From: an uncultured archaeon | GTDB lineage: Archaea; Thermoproteota; Nitrososphaeria_A; Caldarchaeales; Wolframiiraptoraceae | Assembly (NCBI GenBank): GCA_938083505.1 | Contig: CALKCF010000004.1 | Coordinates: 1 to 64,000, forward strand | Length of the DNA stretch: 64,000 nt | Direction: 5' to 3' | Shown: in pieces, positions 39,702 through 48,106 of the stretch | Layout of the letters: each line of letters starts with the position of its first letter | Position numbering within the stretch: the stretch's first letter is position 1 | Position numbers and translations under genes: made by a program | The notes under the pieces: generated by a model | Databases searched by the model: none | Seen by the model: the letters and a program-made list of their open reading frames with translations, nothing else | What the model was told of the DNA's origin: nothing

Positions 39702-40808
39702 TTGTTGTCGCAACAAAAACTTTACTTTGCTCTAGATGCTGAAGCGTTTGGTAATTTTATTGACGTCTTGAAAGATCTCGGTTACACGGTTTATGGGCCT
39801 GCGGAAAAAGATGGTGCGATTGTCTTCGAAATCCTTGACTCCATTAAGCAGATGCCAAGAGGTTTGTACGACGAGCAATCTCCTGGAAGATATAGGCTTA
39901 CCAAGAAAGATAATCAAAGATACTTCGGTTATGTTGTCGGCCCACAATCCCCGAAATACGTGCTGTACTCGCCCCAGCACTTGCTATTTAAGGTAAGGAA
40001 GGATGGGAGGACATTCATTCCGCAACCAGACGGTAAAAAGATAGCGATCATCGGACTCAGACCGTGCGATTTGAAGGCAATCGAGATACTCGATAACGTC
40101 CTACTTAAGGGACCGTATAAGAGCAATGCATACGAAGCCATCAGAAAAGATGCGCTGTTTATAGCGGTCAACTGCGTTGAGCCTGGTAATAACTGCTTCT
40201 GTACATCCATGAACACTGGTCCGTTTGCGCAATCCGGTTACGATATCTCCATCACCGAGCTTTTAATGAACGGAAGCCACGTCTTTATCCTAGAGACTAT
40301 GACAAACAAGGGCACAGAGATCGTAAGTAGACTTAAATGCAGAAATGCGACAGAGGAGGAGTTAAACGTTGTATCAAAATTGATGGAAGATGCAAAGAAC
40401 AAAATAAGGAAGAAGTTGGACGTCGAGAATCTAAAAGATGACCTTTACAGAAACATCGAACATCCGAATTGGAACGAAATCAATAATAAGTGCTTGGCGT
40501 GCGGGAACTGTACGCTTGTCTGTCCAACGTGCTTCTGCTCTTCCGTGTTTGACAGCTCATCACTCTCGATGGATGTGGCTGAGAGATGGAGGGTATGGGA
40601 TTCCTGCTTCAGCATAGATTACTCATACATTCATGGCGGATCGATAAGACAGTCAATCATGAGTCGATATAGACATTGGTTGATGCATAAGCTTGCTACA
40701 TGGGTCGATCAATTTGGAACGTTTGGCTGCGTAGGTTGCGGAAGGTGCATAACTTGGTGCCCCGTAGGAATAGATATTGTGGAAGAGGCTAGCAAGGTAA
40801 GGGATTGA
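39702..40808 (+). CDS. hydB: Sulfhydrogenase/hydrogenase beta subunit (HydB), Fe-S
   Basis: 368 residues. Near the end are two [4Fe-4S] sites, CLACGNCTLVCPTCFCSS and CVGCGRCITWCPVGID. The N-terminal domain matches anaerobic sulfite reductase subunit A and HydB of the Pyrococcus soluble hydrogenase. It relays electrons between the flavin subunit and the NiFe small subunit. It is the first gene of a four-gene operon: hydB, hydG, hydD, hydA. Confidence 0.9.
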   Translation: MLSQQKLYFALDAEAFGNFIDVLKDLGYTVYGPAEKDGAIVFEILDSIKQMPRGLYDEQSPGRYRLTKKDNQRYFGYVVGPQSPKYVLYSPQHLLFKVRKDGRTFIPQPDGKKIAIIGLRPCDLKAIEILDNVLLKGPYKSNAYEAIRKDALFIAVNCVEPGNNCFCTSMNTGPFAQSGYDISITELLMNGSHVFILETMTNKGTEIVSRLKCRNATEEELNVVSKLMEDAKNKIRKKLDVENLKDDLYRNIEHPNWNEINNKCLACGNCTLVCPTCFCSSVFDSSSLSMDVAERWRVWDSCFSIDYSYIHGGSIRQSIMSRYRHWLMHKLATWVDQFGTFGCVGCGRCITWCPVGIDIVEEASKVRD

Positions 40809-40812
40809 GTTT

Positions 40813-41670
40813 ATGAAGGAAAAGTCCACGTTAGAGACCGCTCAAGAAGTAGAAGTCGAGGTAATGAGGAAGTTTTCAGTCGAAGAAGTCTTCAAGGAGA
40901 CGCCTGATACTTACACGCTATTACTAAAGCCGTTAGATAAGAAAGATTATAGCTTTGTTCCAGGCCAGTTTAACATGCTGTACGCGTTCGGCGTAGGAGA
41001 GGTGCCGATCTCTTTAAGCGGCGATCCAGACGAGAAGTATCTGATCGCCCACACGATTAGGGTCGTTGGTGCCGTGACAAATGCCTTGGTGAATGCAAGG
41101 AAGCCAAAATTCATTGGCCTTAGGGGTCCATTCGGGAATGGATGGCCTTTGGAGAAGACAAAAGGAAAGGACGTGATAATCGTGGCCGGAGGCATAGGTC
41201 TAGCGCCGCTCAGACCAGCAATATATTACATCTTAAAACACAGGAAGGAATATGGTAGGTTCTTCTTCCTTTACGGTGCTAGGACACCTAATGATTTATT
41301 ATACAAGAAGGAATTAAAGGAGTGGAAGAGTAGGTTCGATATGGATGCCTTCATAACTGTGGATGCTGGTGATGAAAAGTGGACAGGAAATATCGGTGTC
41401 GTAACAACTCTTTTCAAACATATAAAGCTCGACCCGAATAACACGTATGCCTTTGTCTGTGGACCAGAGATAATGATGAAGTTTACTGTACTCGAGCTCA
41501 GGAATCAAGGCTTAACTGATGATAAAATATACATCTCGATGGAAAGGAATATGAAGTGCGGCATGGGGCTTTGTGGACGCTGTCAGTTCGGGCCTTACTT
41601 TGTATGCAAGAACGGCCCGATATTTTCGATGGATCAGATAAATAGGTTCTTTGGGAGGCGTGAGGTCTGA
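40813..41670 (+). CDS. hydG: Hydrogenase gamma subunit (HydG), FAD/NAD(P)-binding
   Basis: 285 residues. Ferredoxin-NADP reductase fold: [10 protein letters not shown] for flavin, [13 protein letters not shown] for nucleotide and [11 protein letters not shown]. The C-terminal [2Fe-2S] site has [10 protein letters not shown] and FVCKNG. It exchanges electrons with NADP(H). Its TGA stop overlaps the ATG of hydD by one base. Confidence 0.9.
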
Positions 41671-42446
41671 TGGTAGGGAAAATACCTAAGATAGCGGTAT
41701 ACAAGTTCGCATCATGTGATGGTTGTCAGCTAAGCATAGTAGACCTTGAGGATGAGCTTTTGGAGATAAACCAGAAGTTCGAGATAGCTTACTTCATGGA
41801 GGTAACTAGGGCGGCGAAAAGGGGTCCTTACGACGTCGGTTTAGTCGAAGGAAGTATATCCACGCCGCACGCTATCGAACTGATAAAGTCGATAAGGAAG
41901 GACTGCAAGACGCTCGTGGCGATAGGCGCATGCGCGACTGCAGGTGGAATCCAAGCTCTCAGGAACTGGGCGAACGTCGAAGAATTCTCAAAGTACGTCT
42001 ACGCTAAGCCTGAATACATACAGACGCTTGAGAAATCCTCTCCGATCTCAGAGTATGTCCAAGTTGACTTTGAGCTCAGGGGATGTCCTGTGAACAAGTA
42101 CCAGCTCCTTGAGGTTTTGTCCGCATTTCTTGCTGGAAGGAAGCCTAACATACCAACGTACAGCTTGTGCATAGAGTGTAAGAGAAAGGGAAACGTTTGC
42201 GTAACGGTTGCTAAGAGTGTGCCGTGCCTCGGGCCAGTCGTACAAGCAGGTTGTGGTGCACTATGCCCAGCATACTCGAGGGGTTGCTACGGGTGCTTCG
42301 GTCCGATGGAGAGCCCGAACGTGAAGAGCTTAGCAAGCAAATTCATCGAACTTGGAATGGATAAGAAAGATGTGATCCTTAATTTTAGAGGGTTTACAGG
42401 TTGGTCAAAGGAGTTTAGGGAGGTGGATGTGTTAATTGAAGGGTAA
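41670..42446 (+). CDS. hydD: NiFe hydrogenase small subunit (HydD), group 3b type
   Basis: 258 residues. The proximal-cluster motif [18 protein letters not shown] lies at residue 13. [14 protein letters not shown] and further cysteines ([26 protein letters not shown]) hold three Fe-S clusters. It has no signal peptide, so the complex is cytoplasmic. It overlaps the large-subunit start by 11 bases. Confidence 0.93.
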
Positions 42447-43731
42447 GGCGAAGACGGTAAAGGTAGATTACCTCGCAAGGGTCGAAGGTGAGGGAGCCCT
42501 TTACATAAAGGTAAAGGGCACGGAGGTCCTAGATGTGAAGTTCAAGATATTTGAGGCGCCAAGATTTTTCGAGAGTTTCCTTAGAGGAAGGAAGTACCAC
42601 GAAGTCCCGGACATAACCGCAAGGATATGCGGTATATGCCCAATAGCATACCAGATGAGCTCCGTTCATGCATTAGAGGATGCGTTTGGGGTGAAAGTGG
42701 ACGGCCCTCTAAGAGAGCTCAGGAGGTTCATCTACTGTGGAGAATGGATAGAGAGTCATGCACTCCATGCATTCCTCCTACATGCACCCGACTTCCTTGG
42801 TTATGATGATGCAATGAGGATGGCGAAGGCCCATCCAGACATTGTCAAGAAGGCATTGATGGTGAAGAAGATAGGCAACGAGATCATGGCGAAGCTTGGT
42901 GGAAGGGAGATACATCCAGTATCTGTCTGCGTCGGAGGGTTTTATAAGGTACCGACGAAGAGGCAGATGGAGGCGATGAGAGAGGACCTGAAGAAGGGCA
43001 TGGACCTCAGCGTCGAACTACTCAGATGGGTTGCGGACCTCAAGTTCCCCGACTTCGAGCAGGACTATGAGTTTGTGTCGCTTAGACATCCAGATGAATA
43101 CCCATTAAACGAGGGAAGGATAGTGTCCAATAAGGGCTTGGATATATCGATAAGCGAGTACGAGAACAATTTCGTGGAAGAACATGTACCATACACAAAC
43201 GCCCTTCAATCATACATAAAGGGCAGGGGCTCTTACATGGTAGGGCCTCTTGCAAGGATAAACCTGAATTACGACAAGCTATGGGACCTAACGAAGGACA
43301 TGCTGAAGTCCATAGGCTTCAAGATTCCATGCAGGAACCCATTCAAGAGCATAATAGCGAGGTGTGCTGAGGTGTTGTACTCCTTCGAGGAGGCGCTCAG
43401 GATAATTAATGAGTATAAAGAACCTAACGAGTCAAAGGTTGATTACAAAGTAAAGGCAGGAAGGGGTTATGGTTGCACTGAGGCACCAAGAGGCTCATTA
43501 TACCATAGGTATGATGTAGCCGCCGATGGTACCATAGTTTCGGCAAAAATAGTACCTCCGACTGCGCAGAACCAAAAGCGGATGGAGGATGACCTGAGGG
43601 CGATGGCACCATCTGTCATGAAACTCCCTTATGAGAAGGCTGTCTGGAGGTTCGAGCAGGCCTTAAGGAACTACGATCCGTGCATATCTTGCGCCACACA
43701 CTTCCTGAGGCTAGAGGTAGAGCGCTCCTAG
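42436..43731 (+). CDS. hydA: NiFe hydrogenase large subunit (HydA), group 3b type
   Basis: 431 residues, TTG start with GGAGGTGG upstream. The NiFe ligands are [14 protein letters not shown] (L1) and [13 protein letters not shown] (L2). Only about nine residues follow the final His, so a cleavable C-terminal extension is short or absent. With hydBGD it forms a reversible NADP(H)-linked hydrogenase that may also reduce sulfur, as in Pyrococcus. No maturation genes (hyp) are in the window. Confidence 0.94.
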
Positions 43732-43925: not shown

Positions 43926-45059
43926 ATGCCCGCGTTCTTTGCAACAATAGTTACAGGGCTAGAAGATGTTGGGGCAAAAGAGGTCGAGTCTATAGTAGGC
44001 TGTAAAGCAAGGCCGGATGCCGGTAAGGTGTTCTTCGAATGCGACATTTATGGTGCTGTATTGCTGAACTTTACCTCTCGTTGTTTACATAAGATTTTCC
44101 TATTACTTGGACACGATACCGTTTCCTCGCTGGAAGATGTTGCACGCCTTGCACGTAGTATAGATTATGCTGAGCTGATCCTACCGTCGCAGTCGTTCGC
44201 CGTTAGGGTCGAGAAACATGGTGAGCATGAGCTTAGAAGCCTCGATATTGCCTCAACTGTAGGCAAGAGTGTCGTAGAGTCTTACCTTGCATCCAAAAAC
44301 GTCAGGCTTGTTGTCAATTTAGACAACCCAGATGTCGAGCTGTATGCTTTGCTGAGGAACAATGAGTTGCTGATTGGCTTGAACATGACTGGGCAATCGC
44401 TTCATAGAAGGTTTTACAAAACATTCTATCATAGAGCGTCGCTCATGCCGACGATAGCTTGCTCCATGATATTGCTGAGCGGTTGGAAACCGGGAGAGAG
44501 TTTGTTAGATCCGATGTGTGGAGGCGGAACGATACCGATAGAGGCGGCACTGATGGCAAGACGCATAGCGCCAGGCTTGAGAAAGGGTAATCTGGCCTTA
44601 GAGAGGCTATTCTTCATCGAAAAAGAGCTTATTGGAGAGATTCGCGACAAGCTTCTCTCAAACGAGACGAATGTTATGGTGGAAATCTACGGCATAGATG
44701 TCTCGCCAAAGAGTGTTGAAGGTGCACTTGTTAACGCAGCCAAGGCGAACGTATTGGATACTGTGTCAATAAAGGTTGGCGACGCATTAAATTTAGTTAA
44801 TTACATAAGCGAGCCGCCCGATCACATCATAACGAATCCGCCCTACGGTATAAGGATGGGTATCAGGAACATAGAAAAGTTCTATGAGAGAATCTTAACG
44901 TCGATTAGACAGGCGGCTCCGCATGCAACTATAACGATAATAACGAGTAAGTCGAACCTTCTCAGAAGGATTGCGGAAGCGCTCAGAATGCAAGTGGTCG
45001 AGGCTAGACAGTTGTTCTACGGAAGGATTCAAGCGAACATAATTAAGCTGTTGCAATAA
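43926..45059 (+). CDS. trm14: THUMP-domain tRNA guanine-N2 methyltransferase (Trm14-like)
   Basis: 377 residues. An N-terminal ferredoxin-like and THUMP part (residues 1-160) precedes a Rossmann methyltransferase with LLDPMCGGGTIPIEAALMA and the catalytic ITNPPYGIRMG. Archaeal members make m2G at position 6 of tRNA; the RlmL branch acts on 23S rRNA. It begins 28 bases after tRNA-Gly, on the same strand. Confidence 0.85.
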   Translation: MPAFFATIVTGLEDVGAKEVESIVGCKARPDAGKVFFECDIYGAVLLNFTSRCLHKIFLLLGHDTVSSLEDVARLARSIDYAELILPSQSFAVRVEKHGEHELRSLDIASTVGKSVVESYLASKNVRLVVNLDNPDVELYALLRNNELLIGLNMTGQSLHRRFYKTFYHRASLMPTIACSMILLSGWKPGESLLDPMCGGGTIPIEAALMARRIAPGLRKGNLALERLFFIEKELIGEIRDKLLSNETNVMVEIYGIDVSPKSVEGALVNAAKANVLDTVSIKVGDALNLVNYISEPPDHIITNPPYGIRMGIRNIEKFYERILTSIRQAAPHATITIITSKSNLLRRIAEALRMQVVEARQLFYGRIQANIIKLLQ

Positions 45060-45070
45060 AAATTAACTCT

Positions 45071-46348
45071 TTACTTGCAAAAATTCATCCAGCCTTCCAT
45101 CTTCTCCCATGACCAGCTGTAGCTTGCCGGCACAGCATACCCATAGACTATGCAACCACGCCAAACCGAGTACTGCGGCTCCGATGCCATAGTAACCTCT
45201 ATGTTCTCTATGCCCTTCTCCGCCATCATACGTTTAATCTTCGTAGCAGAATCCACGCAGACGTTCTTCAACTTCTCTGGAACCCTCCAAGAGAAGTTCC
45301 CACCGGATAAGAGTATCTGGCTGTAGAGCAGTGGCTGGAGCTCAACAGGACACTTCTCTACAGCACTTATTATCGCTTCAGCCATGTTAAGCATTCCATA
45401 AAAGACAACATCACCGACCTTTGTGTCCCTTGGTCTCGGCATCCCTCTCTTAAAATAACTCTGAAATATTTCGTGGTTTGGGTTAAAGACGTACTCGCCG
45501 ACTAAAAATCTTGTCCAAGAGTTCTCGGCAAGGTCTATCTTGAGTCTAGTTCCAGGAACCGAATAGACCGTCCTAACAGCATCTGGGTTATTTTTAGCGA
45601 ATGAAATGGCAGAGTTTAAATCAGCAGGCAATAGACCCAGGTTTTCCTTAACCTTTCTCACCAGAGTCTCCTCAGCAGCCAAATCACCATAACCAGCATC
45701 TTTGAGGATTTCTGTCATGATAGCGTTGGCATCGCTCCCTCCCCTATTCAAAGCTATGACAGCACCTCTTATGGGTGCTCTAGAGATTGGTGCGAACTGT
45801 GTATTTCCATGCCCGCTCTCCACCACGACGCAAGATGTCTTCTTGTGAGCTATGGCGACAGCAAGAGGTTGCGAAATTATTGTTGCCGAATGTACGAGGC
45901 CCGCCTCTTTGGCCATGCTCTCAAGCATTTCAAAGAACTTCTCGTACATGTACCTCGGCGCGACGGCTGAGAGTGCGGCCACGACATAAAAACCATTGAA
46001 GCCCCAACCCTTTGGCTTGAACTCCTCTAACGCATGGCGCATCAGCTCCCTCACCACTTTCCATGCTTTTACATCGTCCTTCATGATGATGCCTTCTCTC
46101 ATCGGGTAGATGAGTCGTGTGGCGAGCTCTGCACCGCTCTCCAAGAATAGCGTTATATCCTTTCCGACGATCACTTCACGGTCAACACCCATTATCTGGG
46201 AGAGAATTGTTTTCTCAGGGAAGTAACCCCTGTTTTCTACGACAAGAGGTCTCTCGCCTTGGGTTATTGGCCCGTACTTAAACTCGCTTGTACCGTAATC
46301 CGTTCCGAACACGTAACGCTTTTTGTAATCTTCGTCATGCATCTCCAT
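45071..46348 (-). CDS. Crenactin (archaeal actin)
   Basis: 425 residues from ATG 46348. The actin ATPase core is clear: YVFGTDYGTSEFKYGP as phosphate 1 loop, VVVESGHGNTQFAPIS as phosphate 2, and ILLSGGNFSWRVPEKLKN with SEPQYSVWRGCIVYGYA near the C-terminus. These last two match the Pyrobaculum calidifontis crenactin sequence as I remember it, including length (about 430). Crenactin makes double helical filaments and is linked to cell shape in rod-like Thermoproteales. ATTTAA at 46373-46378 lies about 27 bases before ATG 46348, so a leaderless message of its own is likely. An arcadin-like gene lies just upstream. Confidence 0.88.
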   Translation of the reverse strand: MEMHDEDYKKRYVFGTDYGTSEFKYGPITQGERPLVVENRGYFPEKTILSQIMGVDREVIVGKDITLFLESGAELATRLIYPMREGIIMKDDVKAWKVVRELMRHALEEFKPKGWGFNGFYVVAALSAVAPRYMYEKFFEMLESMAKEAGLVHSATIISQPLAVAIAHKKTSCVVVESGHGNTQFAPISRAPIRGAVIALNRGGSDANAIMTEILKDAGYGDLAAEETLVRKVKENLGLLPADLNSAISFAKNNPDAVRTVYSVPGTRLKIDLAENSWTRFLVGEYVFNPNHEIFQSYFKRGMPRPRDTKVGDVVFYGMLNMAEAIISAVEKCPVELQPLLYSQILLSGGNFSWRVPEKLKNVCVDSATKIKRMMAEKGIENIEVTMASEPQYSVWRGCIVYGYAVPASYSWSWEKMEGWMNFCK

Positions 46349-46386
46349 CAACAATATCTATAATGCTTATGAATTTAAGCGTTAAA

Positions 46387-47052
46387 CTAACCTTTGCCCG
46401 CTAATATATCGAGCCATGGATTGTCTTTTACGAATGACGGTAACTCAATTTCGGAGTTAAGGTTAGCTATCTTGTCAGGCACATACTGTACTGTAGGTTT
46501 GACGTGCAATGGGCGCATACCCTCAAAACTCAGTAACTTGTTAGAGAGTTCGTTGTATGCTACCTCGAGCCTCTCCAACCTTGCCACCAACGCGTCTATT
46601 TCATTTACCTTATAGACAACCCTCTCCAGCCTCTCTATCCTTTCAAGCACTTGCAAAACTTCCTCGTATTTTATAGGCACGCTACCTTCATTCCCCATCT
46701 CGTCGTGCTTTATGTTCTTTACAATGGGTGGCAACTCCTCTATACCATGCGGTCCATACAACAGAAGACCTATGCCGTGCAACCTGATAACCATGAACTC
46801 ATCCATAGAGCTCATGTTCTTCGGAACCAAGATGTATGGTTTCTCACCTTTGGCCGCCCAGAAAGCAGACTGCAGAGCGGCGGAGATTAACTCCAGCCTA
46901 CCATCGGTATCATCAAGTATCTTGACGACATAAGTAGAACTGTTCCCAACGAACCTCAGCGTATCTTCTTCCACACTACCGCTATCGAACCTCAGGCCCT
47001 GCCTTGACATGTAGCTGATGACATTCCTTTCAAGAATGGTCCGCGGTACCAA
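46387..47052 (-). CDS. Arcadin-2-like crenactin partner (coiled coil with C-terminal peptide)
   Basis: 221 residues, TTG start. A globular N-terminal domain covers about residues 1-120 (LRFVGNSSTYVVKILDDTDG, MVIRLHGIGLLLYG). A coiled coil follows at 128-175 (EEVLQVLERIERLERVVYK). After a disordered stretch the protein ends in a short segment, PSFVKDNPWLDILAGKG. Arcadin-2 of P. calidifontis is about the same length and uses a C-terminal helix to hold crenactin monomers. The layout and gene position fit that role, but sequence identity was not tested. A TTTTAAC box near 47087 could be its promoter. Confidence 0.6.
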   Translation of the reverse strand: MVPRTILERNVISYMSRQGLRFDSGSVEEDTLRFVGNSSTYVVKILDDTDGRLELISAALQSAFWAAKGEKPYILVPKNMSSMDEFMVIRLHGIGLLLYGPHGIEELPPIVKNIKHDEMGNEGSVPIKYEEVLQVLERIERLERVVYKVNEIDALVARLERLEVAYNELSNKLLSFEGMRPLHVKPTVQYVPDKIANLNSEIELPSFVKDNPWLDILAGKG

Positions 47053-47140: not shown

Positions 47141-48106
47141 TCAGAAGGCCTTAATCGAGACAAGCTCGTTGAGAATATGCTGCGGAGCCCTTGGTCCTCT
47201 GAACAACATGGCAGTCATTATCTGAACGGTGTTTGCACCAGCCCTTAACGCTTCTAAGGCGTCAGCTCCTGTCATTATGCCACCGACTGCGTTTATCTCG
47301 ATTTCTTCGCCCAGCTCCTTTCTAATCTCCCTCACAGTTTCTAGCATTATGCGTGTTAGTGGTCTGCCACTCAAACCACCCCTTCCTAGCGCGAGCTCTG
47401 GTGCATCGACCAAGAGTGTGTTAACGGCCGTTACGCCGTCCATTCCACAATCCATCCATACTTTTACCAACTTACACATCTCATTCATCTCTTCGGAGGT
47501 CGTTGGTGGCGGAATCTTGATGTATGCGGGCTTCAATTTTATCCCCTTCAACATCTCGACAAATTCACGCAAATTTTTTGGTTCCTTCATATATGTGCTA
47601 GCTTCGTTTGTAGGGCATGAGATATTTACCTCAACGGCATCAACGACTTTCTGCAGAGCGGCAAAGCATTCGACAAATTCGTTAATCGTGTTGCCTGTTA
47701 TGCTGGCGACGACCTTGCAACCTTCAACCCTTTTAAAGTTCTTCAAGAACTTCATTATACCAGGGTTGGGCAGACCCATAGCGTTGACGACTGCCTGTTC
47801 CGCTTCCCTGTAAGCTATTCTTGGTTTAGGATGGCCCTTTCTCGGATTTAGCGTAAAGCTGCCCACTACTATGTAGCCGAAGCCAAGCTTGGACAGTGCC
47901 TTGACGTACTTACCGCTTTTATCATAACCTGCCGCGAGACCTAATGGGTTCTTCAATCTACCCATCTTCGTTTCAACCTCTAAGTCTTTTGGAGACTCAA
48001 ACTCCAATGGTAGGTACTTCAAAAGCCTAAGCCAAGTAGCATGCAGGAGTTCTGATCCTAAAATACGCGCCAAGAGTTTTACTGCGGGATTTATCCTAAA
48101 CGACAA
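47141..48106 (-). CDS. pyrD: Dihydroorotate dehydrogenase
   Basis: 321 residues, TTG start with GGTG upstream. FMN-binding barrel motifs are GLAAGYDKSGKYVKAL, VGSFTLNPRKGHPKPRI, VNISCPTNEAS, NAVGGIMTGADALEAL and GANTVQIMTAMLF. The N-terminal helix and GHPKPR are class-2 traits, while the catalytic loop has Cys (NISCP), a class-1 trait. The electron acceptor is thus uncertain. It diverges from pyrB and serves UMP synthesis. Confidence 0.88.
   Translation of the reverse strand: MSFRINPAVKLLARILGSELLHATWLRLLKYLPLEFESPKDLEVETKMGRLKNPLGLAAGYDKSGKYVKALSKLGFGYIVVGSFTLNPRKGHPKPRIAYREAEQAVVNAMGLPNPGIMKFLKNFKRVEGCKVVASITGNTINEFVECFAALQKVVDAVEVNISCPTNEASTYMKEPKNLREFVEMLKGIKLKPAYIKIPPPTTSEEMNEMCKLVKVWMDCGMDGVTAVNTLLVDAPELALGRGGLSGRPLTRIMLETVREIRKELGEEIEINAVGGIMTGADALEALRAGANTVQIMTAMLFRGPRAPQHILNELVSIKAF

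Follow-up and report, generated by a model that had tools for sequence, protein, structure and literature searches.

The window examined here, a whole stretch of 64,000 nucleotides from a genome of the heat-loving, uncultured archaeon Candidatus Terraquivivens (Wolframiiraptoraceae, Caldarchaeales/Aigarchaeota), contains a crenactin gene with an arcadin-like gene beside it. A preliminary description had read the two as a minimal two-gene version of the crenactin system that could tell which parts are essential. The locus raises the question of whether an archaeal actin has a single partner here, or whether further components are encoded elsewhere in the genome. Our answer is that the pair is mostly ordinary: the observation was correct, but the claim that would have made the pair exceptional fails. 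We very probably see an ordinary crenactin and a monomer-sequestering arcadin-2 encoded by adjacent genes, with crenactin under its own predicted promoter, a presumed role in cell shape or internal organisation, and arcadin-1 lying in an assembly gap. Named Terraquivivens in the genome collection were Candidatus Terraquivivens tengchongensis, yellowstonensis, tikiterensis and ruidianensis. The features of the locus are listed in Table 1.

Table 1. Features of the crenactin locus (positions in the window)
Feature	Position	Strand	Remarks
Trm14, tRNA (guanine(6)-N2)-methyltransferase	43926..45059	+	NCBIfam NF040721, over cut-off; convergent; context
Crenactin gene	45071..46342	-	423 aa from conserved ATG (MHDEDYKK)
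BRE/TATA-like box TTTAACGCTTAAAT, crenactin's own predicted promoter	46373..46386	-	single match in the window; conserved in Terraquivivens
Arcadin-2 gene	46387..47052	-	221 aa; directly upstream of crenactin; profile match E=1.3e-21
Dihydroorotate dehydrogenase	47141..48106	-	Pfam DHO_dh, E=1.9e-62; next gene upstream, same strand; context, outside the system

The crenactin reading frame allows alternative starts at an ATG at 46348 (45071-46348) or a TTG at 46354 (45071-46354), and the ATG at 46342 is the likeliest start because the congeners start at the same place. All three peptides quoted in the preliminary description, including SEPQYSVWRG, were found in this frame. In a phmmer search of the PDB, the top match was the crenactin of P. 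calidifontis (4cj7, E=2.2e-112, residues 6-421) with 379 bits, against 42 bits for the best actin, and eukaryotic actin was the next-best family (E=4e-10). Among the NCBIfam models, the crenactin model NF053560 gave 558.6 bits, MamK 50.5 and syringactin 26.3, and the Pfam Actin cut-off was exceeded. The 558.6 bits lie below the equivalog naming cut-off of 630, as do the scores of every Caldarchaeales crenactin including that of Caldarchaeum, whose crenactin has been described. We regard the cut-off as a naming threshold and not a defining trait, and with the score below it biochemical equivalence rests on the identity of about 45% to Pyrobaculum-type crenactin. In an alignment of 11 diverse crenactins, the ATP-site residues D17, G19, T20, K24, Q160, E177-G-H-G-N and S348-G-G were invariant, and S178 in the N-terminal part of the motif was conserved in at least 90%. 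Q160, the catalytic glutamine, is the counterpart of Q164/actin Q137. Judging from the score margins, a placement elsewhere in the actin superfamily is very unlikely. By sequence, the gene is a genuine full-length archaeal crenactin, and the match along its whole length and its standing as a true archaeal actin had been recognized correctly.

We then turn to the neighbouring gene. The arcadin-2 profile was built from 14 arcadin-2s, taken solely from canonical arcade-type loci, and the identification is thus non-circular. When the 247 open reading frames of the window were searched with hmmsearch, the upstream gene was recovered at E=1.3e-21 and the next frame at 0.034. The NCBIfam arcadin-2 model NF053561 did not match Terraquivivens arcadin-2, and sequence comparison with the PDB gave coiled-coil or chance matches only. 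The protein consists of an N-terminal alpha/beta domain, a coiled coil (128-177), a disordered linker and a C-terminal helix, LPSFVKDNPWLDILAGKG. The groove-binding motif NPWxxxL lies at the C-terminus, and its residues N211, W213 and L217 were invariant in the 54 homologues reaching that far. The AlphaFold2 model (pLDDT 81.7) likewise predicts a disordered linker at 190-200 and a helix at 212-219. Judged by profile and motif, the gene is arcadin-2. For P. calidifontis, the C-terminal 17 residues of arcadin-2 are sufficient to bind the hydrophobic groove of crenactin and to depolymerise the filaments, and the full-length protein binds crenactin with a Kd of 31 nM (PMC5173319).

The surroundings agreed with the preliminary description, which had placed the gene among tRNA-methyltransferase and pyrimidine genes without the wider arcade cluster; no arcadin-1, -3 or -4 gene was apparent near crenactin at the locus. 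Its proposal of a leaderless-type promoter belonging to crenactin itself also held at the sequence level. The box TTTAACGYTTAAAT, about 23-30 nt ahead of the crenactin start, has a single match in the window (0.06 expected), was kept before crenactin in 6/6 Terraquivivens and was found at no other place among 309 loci. In T. tikiterensis it is retained although arcadin-2 ends 308 nt away. As a separate observation, the genes at 39702-43731, upstream of the locus, resemble a NiFe hydrogenase/sulfhydrogenase operon with a 4Fe-4S subunit, a flavoprotein, and small and large subunits, of which the large subunit alone was checked.

In order to see which components travel with crenactin, we compared 41 genomes of the order (arcadin-2 at E<=1e-20). 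Arcadin-2 was present in 36 of the 37 crenactin-bearing genomes and in none of the four lacking crenactin (Fisher p 5e-5, uncorrected for kinship). In the single exception, the crenactin gene is just a fragment that runs into the end of a contig, and one crenactin-less genome gave a partial arcadin-2 match at 5e-8. In Calditenuaceae, arcadin-2 accompanies crenactin although the two genes are unlinked. On the other hand, arcadin-1 occurred in all four genomes without crenactin. These results indicate that arcadin-2 is the constant companion of crenactin and that arcadin-1 does not depend on its presence.

Gene order at named loci fell into four recurring arrangements that differed among lineages. 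Crenactin, arcadin-2 and arcadin-4 follow one another in Thermoproteales and Thermofilales. In other Wolframiiraptoraceae, Brockarchaeota, Bathyarchaeota and Culexarchaeia, the order is gene X, crenactin and arcadin-2, in many cases with a small zinc-ribbon-like gene after them, and in Calditenuaceae crenactin stands alone with arcadin-2 elsewhere. Terraquivivens, Caldarchaeum and Pelearchaeum have arcadin-2 before crenactin, the reverse of other TACK archaea. Gene X is an undescribed gene directly upstream of crenactin (L132:7282-8007, L122:7462-7995, L126:7362-7880 and 23 similar loci), carried by many non-Thermoproteales lineages and absent from Terraquivivens, Calditenuaceae and Caldarchaeaceae. 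Its product of about 160-260 residues had no convincing relatives in Pfam, NCBIfam or the PDB, where sequence searches gave coiled-coil or chance matches only, and its model (pLDDT 86.5) had no convincing fold match; a likeness to the S-adenosylmethionine decarboxylase fold was set aside (TM 0.34). Some versions end in a possible ribbon-helix-helix. By profile comparison, the Wolframiiraptoraceae and Brockarchaeota versions have good support as one family (95%), with a weak relation towards Bathyarchaeota (25%), and the proposal that X is a divergent arcadin-1 was rejected (probability 0.5%). We regard gene X as a candidate new crenactin partner.

Several other arrangements were noticed at these loci. 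A Wolframiiraptor-group MAG (L101, G020:C27, 6925-8193) contains a second crenactin, 49% identical, adjoining a von Willebrand A-like gene, and the same arrangement is found in a Methanomethylicus-type genome (L093); the L101 copy is either a second type or contamination. A protein of some 75 residues with a coiled coil (cluster c6; L080:7296-7520, L083:8352-8567 and others) precedes crenactin in Thermofilum-type arcade clusters; it has a faint CdvA-like match (E=0.005), and a similar segment lies ahead of Calditenuaceae crenactin. In Bathyarchaeota, Culexarchaeia and relatives, the gene after arcadin-2 encodes a conserved protein of some 95 residues that has conserved cysteines (cluster c5; L071:10572-10883, L087:10488-10799 and others).

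Concerning descent, the crenactin-internal tree grouped Terraquivivens crenactin with those of Caldarchaeaceae and Calditenuaceae at 100/100 support, and a topology uniting it with the remainder of its own family was rejected (AU p 2.7e-83, lnL -64). The gene order and the lack of gene X agree with this grouping, and both NCBI and the genome collection assign Terraquivivens to Wolframiiraptoraceae. Terraquivivens may thus have acquired the pair horizontally from a Caldarchaeum-like donor, or an X-crenactin-arcadin-2 cassette may have replaced the pair in the other Wolframiiraptoraceae, an explanation to which we give about an even chance. Against it, a three-marker tree (EF-2, FtsZ, MetRS) united Terraquivivens with its own family only weakly (71/75), and EF-2 alone left the family tree unresolved and did not unite them. 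Moreover, the crenactin tree could also have arisen if two ancient crenactins were lost differentially. We consider it likely that the pair was transferred or replaced, or that one of two old crenactins was lost; transfer or replacement concerns descent and is compatible with arcadin-2 acting as a sequestering partner.

In the genome that contains the window, a 31-nt insertion, ACCTAAGGAGCATAGCATCCTTAGGGGGTAA, interrupts the EF-2 gene (G000:C3 near 139.9 kb, L254) between the P-loop codons IIAH and VDHGK. An inverted repeat is kept and the loop varies (L254; also L251, L252, L253, L242 and L244). An insertion lies at the same codon boundary in three of the four congeners examined and, with a different stem sequence, in two genomes of another family (f3); it is absent in T. 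tikiterensis (G004) and G029. From its sequence, the insertion resembles a very small bulge-helix-bulge intron within a protein-coding gene. A literature search on the subject found no paper matching all terms together.

As for mechanism, P. calidifontis crenactin forms ATP-dependent double-helical filaments (PMC5173319). By analogy with the biochemistry from that species, Terraquivivens crenactin would, with bound ATP, polymerise into double-helical filaments of the F-actin type. Arcadin-2, through its C-terminal helix, would be a competitor of the D-loop for the hydrophobic groove of crenactin, so that filaments are taken apart. The ratio of crenactin to arcadin-2 protein would then govern filament turnover. 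The genome-wide check for FtsZ and ESCRT-III proposed in the preliminary description revealed one FtsZ and two ESCRT-III (Snf7/CdvB) genes. Taking into account that two known division systems are both encoded, we infer that the filaments are more likely to serve cell shape or internal organisation than to be the sole division machine. This coexistence in Caldarchaeales also makes it possible to study crenactin independently of whether it takes the place of FtsZ and ESCRT-III.

We also considered an adaptor function for arcadin-2. Its predicted N-terminal domain resembles a splicing endonuclease and XisH, members of a restriction-endonuclease-like fold (Foldseek E 3e-4 to 1e-3, probability up to 1.00), with modest TM-scores of 0.3-0.58. 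The homologue alignment contained no conserved catalytic residues in this domain, and no Pfam nuclease was among the 25 families most often matched by 55 arcadin-2 members. Such a fold without catalytic residues raises the possibility of a nucleic-acid-binding adaptor comparable to ParR, in which the nuclease-like domain would hold DNA, the coiled coil would oligomerise and the helix would engage crenactin for chromosome segregation or organisation. ParR promotes ParM growth. Arcadin-2 acts in the opposite sense on crenactin, depolymerising it in vitro, and gene X is lacking in the Terraquivivens lineage. Consistent with an adaptor, ParR occupies the same groove on ParM as arcadin-2 on crenactin (PMC5173319), arcadin-2 is located between segregated nucleoids in P. 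calidifontis (PMC9723716), and some versions of gene X have the possible ribbon-helix-helix. On balance, we consider the adaptor function unlikely. We are similarly doubtful of its generalization, in which crenactin systems would be DNA-handling machines with arcadin-2 (and X) as DNA or nucleoid adaptors docking like ParR on ParM, the core being kept beside FtsZ and ESCRT-III in Caldarchaeales and arcadin-1 and -4 being optional. A sequestering arcadin-2 remains our preferred explanation.

The preliminary description had also proposed a search of the rest of the genome for the missing arcadins. Arcadin-4, an SMC/Rad50-like protein, is really missing from the Terraquivivens crenactin system: the cut-off is 860 bits, the best match in the window's genome scored 38, and not one of 31 genomes had a match above the cut-off. 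Arcadin-1 was not found in the window's assembly even at E<=10, and a nucleotide search of that genome for the arcadin-1 region was empty, a result that is uninformative taken alone. In 5/5 Terraquivivens congeners, however, arcadin-1 is present at a conserved place, unlinked to crenactin, with 88-92% identity; its family identity is backed by the arcadin-1 structure 5ly5 (profile E=2e-44; one Terraquivivens sequence E=5e-4). We mapped contig C2 of one congener (G005) gene by gene onto the window's genome. Homology reached the end of contig C6 at 168.8 kb of the congener contig and resumed at base 50 of contig C7, corresponding to 188.6 kb. The 20-kb interval missing between C6 and C7 includes the position of arcadin-1, 180.5 kb. 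As the borders of this interval are the ends of two contigs, the region is missing from the assembly and not deleted, and arcadin-1 is most likely encoded inside this gap. A true minimal two-gene system without arcadin-1, suggested by the failure to find that gene and by the adjacency of crenactin and arcadin-2 with no other arcadin nearby, rests on this gap and is highly improbable in view of the congeners and the flanking synteny.

The gene does lie outside the classic Thermoproteales setting, but this is not a novelty. Crenactins of Korarchaeum and Caldiarchaeum were described in older literature (review PMC4571572), a set of FtsZ2, CdvBC, crenactin, arcadin-1 and arcadin-2 has been published for Caldarchaeales (PMC9723716), and crenactin was present in 113 of the 397 sampled genomes of the phylum; the basic finding is therefore not new. 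What is new is the arcadin-2/crenactin order, the tracking of crenactin by arcadin-2, the crenactin tree splitting Terraquivivens from its own family, and gene X. Comparison can still address which parts are essential, and its outcome favours arcadin-2. It is also useful for sorting core from accessory parts, as it splits arcadin-2, which travels along, from arcadin-1, arcadin-4 and gene X, which do not. The order has a cultivated member, Wolframiiraptor gerlachensis (PMC9246946), in which work on crenactin localisation is conceivable.

Compared with known systems, Terraquivivens crenactin can be aligned over its full length with that of P. calidifontis (PDB 4CJ7, 5LY3, 5LY4), with the same nucleotide-site residues and an adjacent arcadin-2. 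It differs in falling below the NCBIfam naming cut-off, in having arcadin-2 upstream and not downstream, in the lack of arcadin-4, and in the additional presence of FtsZ and ESCRT-III. Terraquivivens arcadin-2 resembles that of P. calidifontis (Rkd2, WP_011850311.1) in length, layout, C-terminal tryptophan helix and adjacency to crenactin, whereas it is only about 20% identical to the arcadin-2 of a Pyrobaculum-type genome and unmatched by NF053561. With the canonical Thermoproteales arcade cluster (crenactin, arcadin-1 to -4) the locus shares the crenactin and arcadin-2 core, but arcadin-4 is absent, arcadin-1 is unlinked and the gene order is turned round. The loci of Caldarchaeum and Pelearchaeum belong to another family, have other flanking genes and lack the Terraquivivens promoter box; nevertheless, they have the same arcadin-2-crenactin order without gene X, a similar spacing (33-72 nt), and crenactins 70-73% identical to that of Terraquivivens.
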